NCBI GenBank assembly: GCA_026706485.1 | Contig: JAPOYR010000010.1 | Span: forward strand, 62,001-126,000 | DNA length: 64,000 bases | Source: Chloroflexota bacterium | Lineage (GTDB): Bacteria; Chloroflexota; UBA11872 | Direction: 5' to 3' | Shown here: positions 59,932-60,973 of the stretch, in pieces | How positions within the stretch are numbered: the first letter of the stretch is position 1 | Layout of the letters: each line of letters opens with the position of its first letter | Notes under the pieces: generated by a model | What the model was told of the DNA's origin: nothing | What the model saw: only the letters and a program-made list of their open reading frames with translations | Database searches by the model: none | Program-made: the position numbers and the translations under genes

Positions 59932-60453
59932 TTATCCCTTAGTTCCCGGCATATCAGGAAACATTGTGGCGCGAAGCTCGGCCAACCGGCTCCAGCGCGG
60001 ATCGATCGCCGCCTCGGCGGGCTCTTCGGAGCGTTCCAAGCCGGGACACTCCGGCCGGCAAACCGGCATCAGCGGCAGCGCGGCAATCAGGCCCTCGGCC
60101 AGGAACGGCGTGAGATCGAGGTTGTGTTGATCGTCGAGCGGCCATACGGCCTCGAGACCCGATTCCTCGGTCGCAGCCCCGTCCGAGTCGATCAAGAACT
60201 CGCCGTCAGCCTCGAAGCGCAAGGTCTGCCGGGCGGGCTCCAGGCAGCGCGCGCACGGTTGCTCGACCGACGCCTCGAATTCGCCGGATGCGTGGATCGC
60301 GCCACTCAGGCGCACCAGACGCACCCGGCCCGCCACCGAGGTCGCCAATTCGGTGACGCTGAGCGCCTCGGGCGGCGCCAGGACGTCGTACGACCGGCTG
60401 GTCCCGGGCGGCTCGCGCACGAATGCCGCGACGTTGAACACGAAGTCGTTCAC
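59932..60453 (-). CDS. DUF177 (YceD-like) protein
   Basis: About 173 residues from GTG 60453 (VNDFVFNVAAFVREPPGTSR), which falls where family members start. A longer frame to 60519 overlaps the upstream gene by 44 bases and is not preferred, although no strong Shine-Dalgarno precedes either start. The Cys pair in PCARCLEP is the family mark, with a second pair-like CRPEC near the C-terminus. YceD-like proteins are tied to 23S rRNA metabolism and are usually next to rpmF, as here. Confidence 0.75.
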   Translation of the reverse strand: MNDFVFNVAAFVREPPGTSRSYDVLAPPEALSVTELATSVAGRVRLVRLSGAIHASGEFEASVEQPCARCLEPARQTLRFEADGEFLIDSDGAATEESGLEAVWPLDDQHNLDLTPFLAEGLIAALPLMPVCRPECPGLERSEEPAEAAIDPRWSRLAELRATMFPDMPGTKG

Positions 60454-60475: not shown

Positions 60476-60958
60476 CTAGACGGTCTCTTCGTCGCCGAGT
60501 TCGGTGATACCGGCGGCATCCTCGTCGAGCGCCGAAATTCCGCGGCGAATGCTCGCCAGGTGCGAAATCAGGCGGTGCTCGATATCGCGCAGCATGTTGA
60601 GCGCGTAGACGTCCATTTCCTCCCGCGACGCCTCGGTTCGCTCTTCCGCCGCCTCGATGATCTGCTCCGCCCGCGCTTCGGCCTGGCGGACGATCTCCTC
60701 GTCGCGCAGCATTTGATCGGCCTGCTCACGCGCTTGCTGGATGATCTGCTCGGCCTCCATCTGCGCCGATTGCGGAATCTGCTCGCGTTCCCGCAGCACC
60801 CGCCGCGCCTCCCGGACTTCTTCCGGAATGCGAATGCGCATTTCGTCGACAATCTCCAGCAGCGCGCGCTCGTCCATCACGATGCGACGCATCATCGGCA
60901 CGCGCTGGGCAGCAGTCACCAGGGCCTCGAGACGTTCGATCAGGTTGATGAGATCGAT
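60476..60958 (-). CDS. SepIVA/DivIVA-like coiled-coil protein (start codon ATC)
   Basis: 160 residues when read from ATC 60958. The first GTG, at 60919, cuts off DLINLIERLEALV, which matches the normal start of this family. AGGAGG at 60968-60973 lies 9 bases before the ATC and would be far (48 bases) from the GTG. The body is a continuous coiled coil (about 35-125) rich in Glu, Arg, Gln and Ala, including QMEAEQIIQQAREQADQML. The order coaD - this gene - DUF177 recalls the SepIVA neighbourhood of mycobacteria, where it acts in septation and elongation. A cell-division or envelope scaffold role is inferred. Confidence 0.8.
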   Translation of the reverse strand: MDLINLIERLEALVTAAQRVPMMRRIVMDERALLEIVDEMRIRIPEEVREARRVLREREQIPQSAQMEAEQIIQQAREQADQMLRDEEIVRQAEARAEQIIEAAEERTEASREEMDVYALNMLRDIEHRLISHLASIRRGISALDEDAAGITELGDEETV

Positions 60959-60973
60959 GGCTAGCTACCTCCT
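60956..60973 (-). promoter_or_regulatory. Shine-Dalgarno AGGAGG and ATC start codon of the SepIVA-like gene
   Basis: AGGAGG occupies 60973-60968 (minus strand), inside the end of coaD, followed by 9 bases and then ATC at 60958-60956. The first standard codon in frame is GTG 60919, 13 codons later. Confidence 0.65.

Follow-up and report, generated by a model that had tools for sequence, protein, structure and literature searches.

Initiation factor IF3 discriminates against start codons other than AUG, GUG, and UUG, and the gene that encodes it, infC, starts at AUU or AUA and is autoregulated by IF3 (as in Escherichia coli; in Staphylococcus aureus the codon is AUA). Outside infC, conserved AUH starts are already known from a handful of genes, namely, pcnB, ccpN, and cvfC1. 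The inefficient AUU start of pcnB limits the amount of its protein in E. coli (Binns and Masters 2002, as described in PMC13009471), and in Staphylococcus and Bacillus, ccpN (AUA) and cvfC1 (AUU) combine a conserved AUH start with an extended Shine-Dalgarno (SD) sequence (PMC13009471). Conserved AUU/AUA starts with an extended SD in S. aureus yield about 10% of the expression obtained with AUG, and one of them reaches up to 30% in rich medium (PMC13009471). In E. coli, excess IF3 lowers both noncanonical initiation and reinitiation, the effect on reinitiation being smaller when an SD is present (PMC2268962).

The gene that we compare with these systems encodes a coiled-coil protein and lies on the minus strand of the window, i.e., the whole 64,000-nucleotide stretch of DNA analyzed, which comes from a 3.37-Mb Chloroflexota genome. 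Like infC, it has an AUH codon that follows a strong SD and is conserved across species, and by analogy it would be expected to be sensitive to IF3. It differs from infC in that the order to which the window belongs uses AUC instead of AUU or AUA and, since the product is a coiled-coil protein, in that there is no autoregulatory loop. It shares with ccpN and cvfC1 a conserved AUH start outside infC, although gene and phylum are different and AUC, AUA, and ACG all occur here within one family, in several lineages. The pcnB gene, in contrast, is unrelated and represents a single case in E. coli.

Genes on the minus strand follow the order rsmD, coaD, coiled-coil gene, yceD, and rpmF. The upstream neighbor, coaD (61456 to 60965), encodes pantetheine-phosphate adenylyltransferase (TIGR01510, 177.8 bits), and the downstream neighbor, yceD, runs from a GTG at 60453 to 59932 (DUF177/YceD; PF02620, 69.9 bits). 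An NCBIfam profile identifies rsmD, whereas rpmF is inferred from a small open reading frame with C-x2-C motifs that adjoins yceD. The coiled-coil protein itself gives weak matches to DivIVA-type profiles, which stay below the curated cut-offs, with 15.8 bits versus 28 for DivIVA in Pfam and 24.6 bits versus 260 for Wag31/DivIVA in NCBIfam. Its predicted structure (pLDDT 83, pTM 0.37) consists of helices at residues 3 to 17, 21 to 24, 30 to 43, and 46 to 155. A SepIVA-like identity is plausible; we take this label from the weak profile matches and from a gene order that we presume to be that of the SepIVA operon, which holds a YceD gene. SepIVA (Rv2927c/MSMEG_2416), found in mycobacteria and Streptomyces, is a small DivIVA-like coiled-coil protein. 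In Mycobacterium smegmatis it affects cell length and septation (PMC7654743), and the SepIVA literature searched made no mention of its start codon.

Around the junction with coaD, the minus strand reads GCC GAGGAGG TAG CTA GCC ATC, continues with GAT CTC ATC AAC CTG ATC, then with GAA CGT CTC GAG GCC CTG, and arrives at GTG. The SD, AGGAGG (60973 to 60968), lies within the 3' end of coaD, whose last codons (CCG AGG AGG TAG) supply its letters, and is separated by 9 nucleotides from an ATC at 60958 to 60956. The TAG stop of coaD (60967 to 60965) falls between the two, 6 nucleotides or two codons before the ATC and in the same frame, and is thus also the in-frame stop upstream of the coiled-coil gene. 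No in-frame ATG, GTG, or TTG able to give the conserved N terminus occurs between this stop and the ATC, and the earliest such codon in the whole gene is the GTG at 60919. On these points, the original prediction of an ATC start at 60958, with AGGAGG 9 bases before it and GTG 60919 as the first canonical codon, agrees with the sequence. Its coordinates, spacing, and codon were right, but of the 13 codons that it counted after the ATC, only 12 (D L I N L I E R L E A L) precede the GTG, and the V that closed its residue string is GTG 60919 itself. Read from the ATC, the coding sequence spans 60958 to 60476 and comprises 160 codons plus a stop. Judged from the sequence comparisons below, translation very probably starts at this AUC.

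The choice of gene callers, a 147-amino-acid protein starting at GTG 60919, has in its favor that this is the first canonical codon in frame. Comparison with relatives makes it very improbable. The upstream segment DLINLIERLEAL is kept as protein while its codons change synonymously, all the way down to homologues that begin with ATG at the position of the ATC, and the order's remaining genera lack the GTG, with L or I at that residue. A start at the GTG would also cost the protein the ATC and the following 12 codons (60958 to 60920) and, with them, most of predicted helix 1. Indeed, no homologue was found that lacks the N-terminal segment and starts at the GTG, as the original prediction would have had it if wrong. 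The CTG at codon 6 was rejected as a start, relatives having CTA, CTT, or CTC there.

The ATC itself is conserved throughout the order. The gene is present in all 23 other genomes of the order that were compared, and 23 of the resulting 24 genomes (L001 to L022 and L024) have ATC at exactly this codon, protein identity over these genomes falling to about 60%; the sole exception, L023, carries AGC at this position and an ATG 12 codons upstream. When 22 genomes were aligned by codon, the first codon was ATC in 22/22, whereas of the 60 other columns in which the residue never changes (Met and Trp excluded), none kept to one codon. Other isoleucine columns mix their codons, with ATA in 10, ATC in 8, and ATT in 3 genomes at codon 4 (GTC in the last one) and ATT in 15 and ATC in 7 at codon 7, so that codon 1 does not behave as an ordinary isoleucine codon. 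Across the family, the N-terminal pattern at the ATC position is M-D-[IL]..L[IV][ED]RLE, and the class-level relatives L025, L026, L029, and L030 have ATG at that very codon, followed by D-I-F-A-L-I-E-R-L-E. The proposal that ATC replaces ATG precisely at the start of the family is thereby borne out. The same data bear on a sequencing or assembly error with G as the true base: different projects, covering several species and more than 20 assemblies, all read the same base, and with no support for an error found at the ATC, its probability is negligible. That the true base might be ATG's, which the original prediction had named as a way of being wrong, therefore fails against many independent assemblies.

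Since coaD and the coiled-coil gene share a frame and lie only two codons apart in this genome, ribosomes that read through the TAG of coaD, or shift frame, could in principle produce a CoaD-coiled-coil fusion. In L008 and L020, however, the stop after the SD lies in another frame, and L021 and L022 have two in-frame stops, the last of which (TAA) directly precedes the ATC. As the frame of the stop differs among relatives, readthrough is ruled out as a general mechanism; a fusion would also leave the SD pointless and the ATC codon unconstrained. We consider this explanation extremely unlikely.

To place the AUC start in a wider context, we scored 141 distinct sequences from across the phylum, including 60 further phylum loci and 80 loci from named genomes. 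At the family start position, ATG was found in 67, ATC in 48, ATA in 6, GTG in 5, ACG in 4, and TTG in 3 sequences, and the 8 sequences with other codons probably start upstream. Among the 58 sequences with ATC, ATA, or ACG, 35 (29 with ATC, 22 of them from the window's order, 2 with ATA, and 4 with ACG) have no in-frame ATG, GTG, or TTG back to the preceding stop. In 7 more, the sole upstream canonical codon is a GTG within the SD (AAGGGGGTGA); this GTG, three codons upstream, was considered as a start in other lineages and rejected for being part of the SD. With some canonical codon upstream, the remaining 16 are less certain to start noncanonically. ACG occupies the start position in homologues L195, L196, L198, and L201, with GGAGG upstream and no in-frame ATG, GTG, or TTG. 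On the single-gene tree, which is short and partly poorly supported, canonical and noncanonical starts have interchanged at least 12 times. Control genes of the same loci were canonical in 216 of 218 cases (coaD, 81/82; rsmD, 25/25; yceD, 71/72; rpmF, 39/39), the yceD exception being possibly misaligned. The sole coaD exception, L019, belongs to the same order and has an ATC start after GAGGTAACCC.

Noncanonical starts in the order also extend to other genes. The original prediction treated the ATC as an oddity of one gene, a picture that has to be widened, since such starts recur phylum-wide in the family and this genome has other genes of this kind. The infC gene of the order (L141 to L165; G000:C10:176209-176709 in the window's genome) lacks a conserved canonical start. 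In one family of the order, infC has an invariant CTG after AAGGAG or GGGAG, and in members of the other family it has ATA after AAGGAGGTAGCG. Read from sequence, CTG or ATA is thus the apparent infC start in this order, with less certainty than for the coiled-coil gene because a TTG lies nearby in many cases. A second infC-like copy, with ATA, is present in G014. We further screened orthologs between about 0.95 Mb of the window's genome and 0.8 Mb of a complete sister-genus genome, obtaining 216 pairs and 47 raw candidates for noncanonical starts, most of which were rejected as having ATG, GTG, or TTG at the likely start and an upstream tail aligned by chance. Besides the coiled-coil gene, two of the candidates inspected combined a conserved N terminus with the absence of any upstream canonical start, and relatives confirmed both. 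The first is an ABC exporter (G000:C10:170010; L340 to L358), whose start position holds ATA in 19/19 genomes from the family of the window's genome, compared with a share of 4.4% for ATA among isoleucine codons. The second is a CNNM/HlyC-CorC membrane protein (G000:C10:146742; L370 to L391), whose 19 sequences divide by genus into 6 with ATA and 13 with ATC. Noncanonical starts would thus account for roughly 1 to 2% of the genes examined, a figure from a sample screen and not from a census. An ABC transporter ATPase on another contig (G000:C6, near 153001 to 173000; L285) reads GAGGTTCCC followed by ATC, with a canonical start only 42 codons later, and its sister-genus homologue (G006) has ATG.

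Next, we asked how such codons might be decoded. The 16S rRNA of the genome ends in a normal tail (GGAUCACCUCCUUUCU), its IF3 aligns over its length to solved IF3 structures, and 49 tRNA matches were obtained with Rfam. Among the tRNAs scanned, a single one is of the initiator type, with a CAU anticodon and the three G:C pairs. The tRNA-Ile(GAU) resembles a regular elongator, and neither the 16S tail nor the scanned tRNAs nor IF3 showed a sign of an altered genetic code. A special initiator tRNA, for instance with a GAU anticodon, would account for several AUH starts together, and in an assembly that is 98% complete a tRNA gene may have been missed. Given that the CAU tRNA is the only one of initiator type found and that the AUA and ACG starts of relatives would require yet further tRNAs, we regard such a tRNA as highly improbable. 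We instead propose that the ordinary CAU initiator tRNA pairs with AUC despite a mismatched third base, and that the strong SD enables initiation there. The median SD:anti-SD pairing energy was -13.2 kcal/mol for noncanonical versus -9.3 kcal/mol for canonical homologues, a difference that is significant when phylogeny is left aside. With phylogeny, no significant link between SD strength and start codon was seen among only 6 supported independent pairs, so that compensation of a weak codon by a strong SD is not established phylogenetically and is only a suggestion. No special RNA structure was seen around the start (z score, 0.93). Ribosomes terminating coaD at the stop between SD and AUC could additionally assist initiation.

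Whether the AUC serves regulation is a separate question. It could be a start without any regulatory role, merely tolerated owing to relaxed start selection in the order or to translational coupling. Consistent with this, unrelated genes of the order use AUA or AUC (the ABC exporter, the CNNM protein, and coaD in L019), and a stop codon lies in the SD-AUC interval here and in most members of the order. On the other hand, ATG is one point mutation away, yet ATC was retained in all but one of the 24 genomes of the order. This retention, while all other invariant columns change their codons, suggests selection for a weak codon, and the canonical starts of the neighboring genes imply that selection on starts is not generally relaxed. 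IF3, moreover, is normal in sequence when set against solved IF3s. We therefore hold a nonregulatory AUC to be a realistic but somewhat improbable explanation. The data suggest instead that the start is weak on purpose and may be adjustable. Initiation at such a codon would be inefficient, and the coiled-coil protein would most likely be scarce relative to CoaD and YceD. Because IF3 rejects starts other than AUG, GUG, and UUG, synthesis of the protein would vary inversely with IF3 activity, as it does for infC. By analogy with infC, we place about even confidence in the start codon making expression of the coiled-coil gene dependent on IF3. The apparent noncanonical infC starts of the order fit such control without demonstrating it.

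No reports of noncanonical starts in Chloroflexota or for this gene family were found in a search that mostly did not reach subscription literature. As far as checked, neither this gene nor this phylum had been linked to such starts before, and it is equally new that they range over AUC, AUA, and ACG and that one order has several genes of this kind. Gene callers limited to ATG, GTG, and TTG truncate proteins of this kind, and the invariance of the codon at position 1 offers a comparative test for such starts in any clade. It is tempting to speculate, though we consider it doubtful, that this order and, in part, the phylum possess a standing class of genes starting at AUC, AUA, ACG, or CUG, infC among them, which IF3 controls jointly and to which the SepIVA-like division gene belongs phylum-wide. 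Such a class would be a translation-initiation regulon linking the state of the ribosome to cell division. An IF3-sensitive level of expression, if the codon does set one, would couple the amount of a division-like protein to the state of translation initiation.
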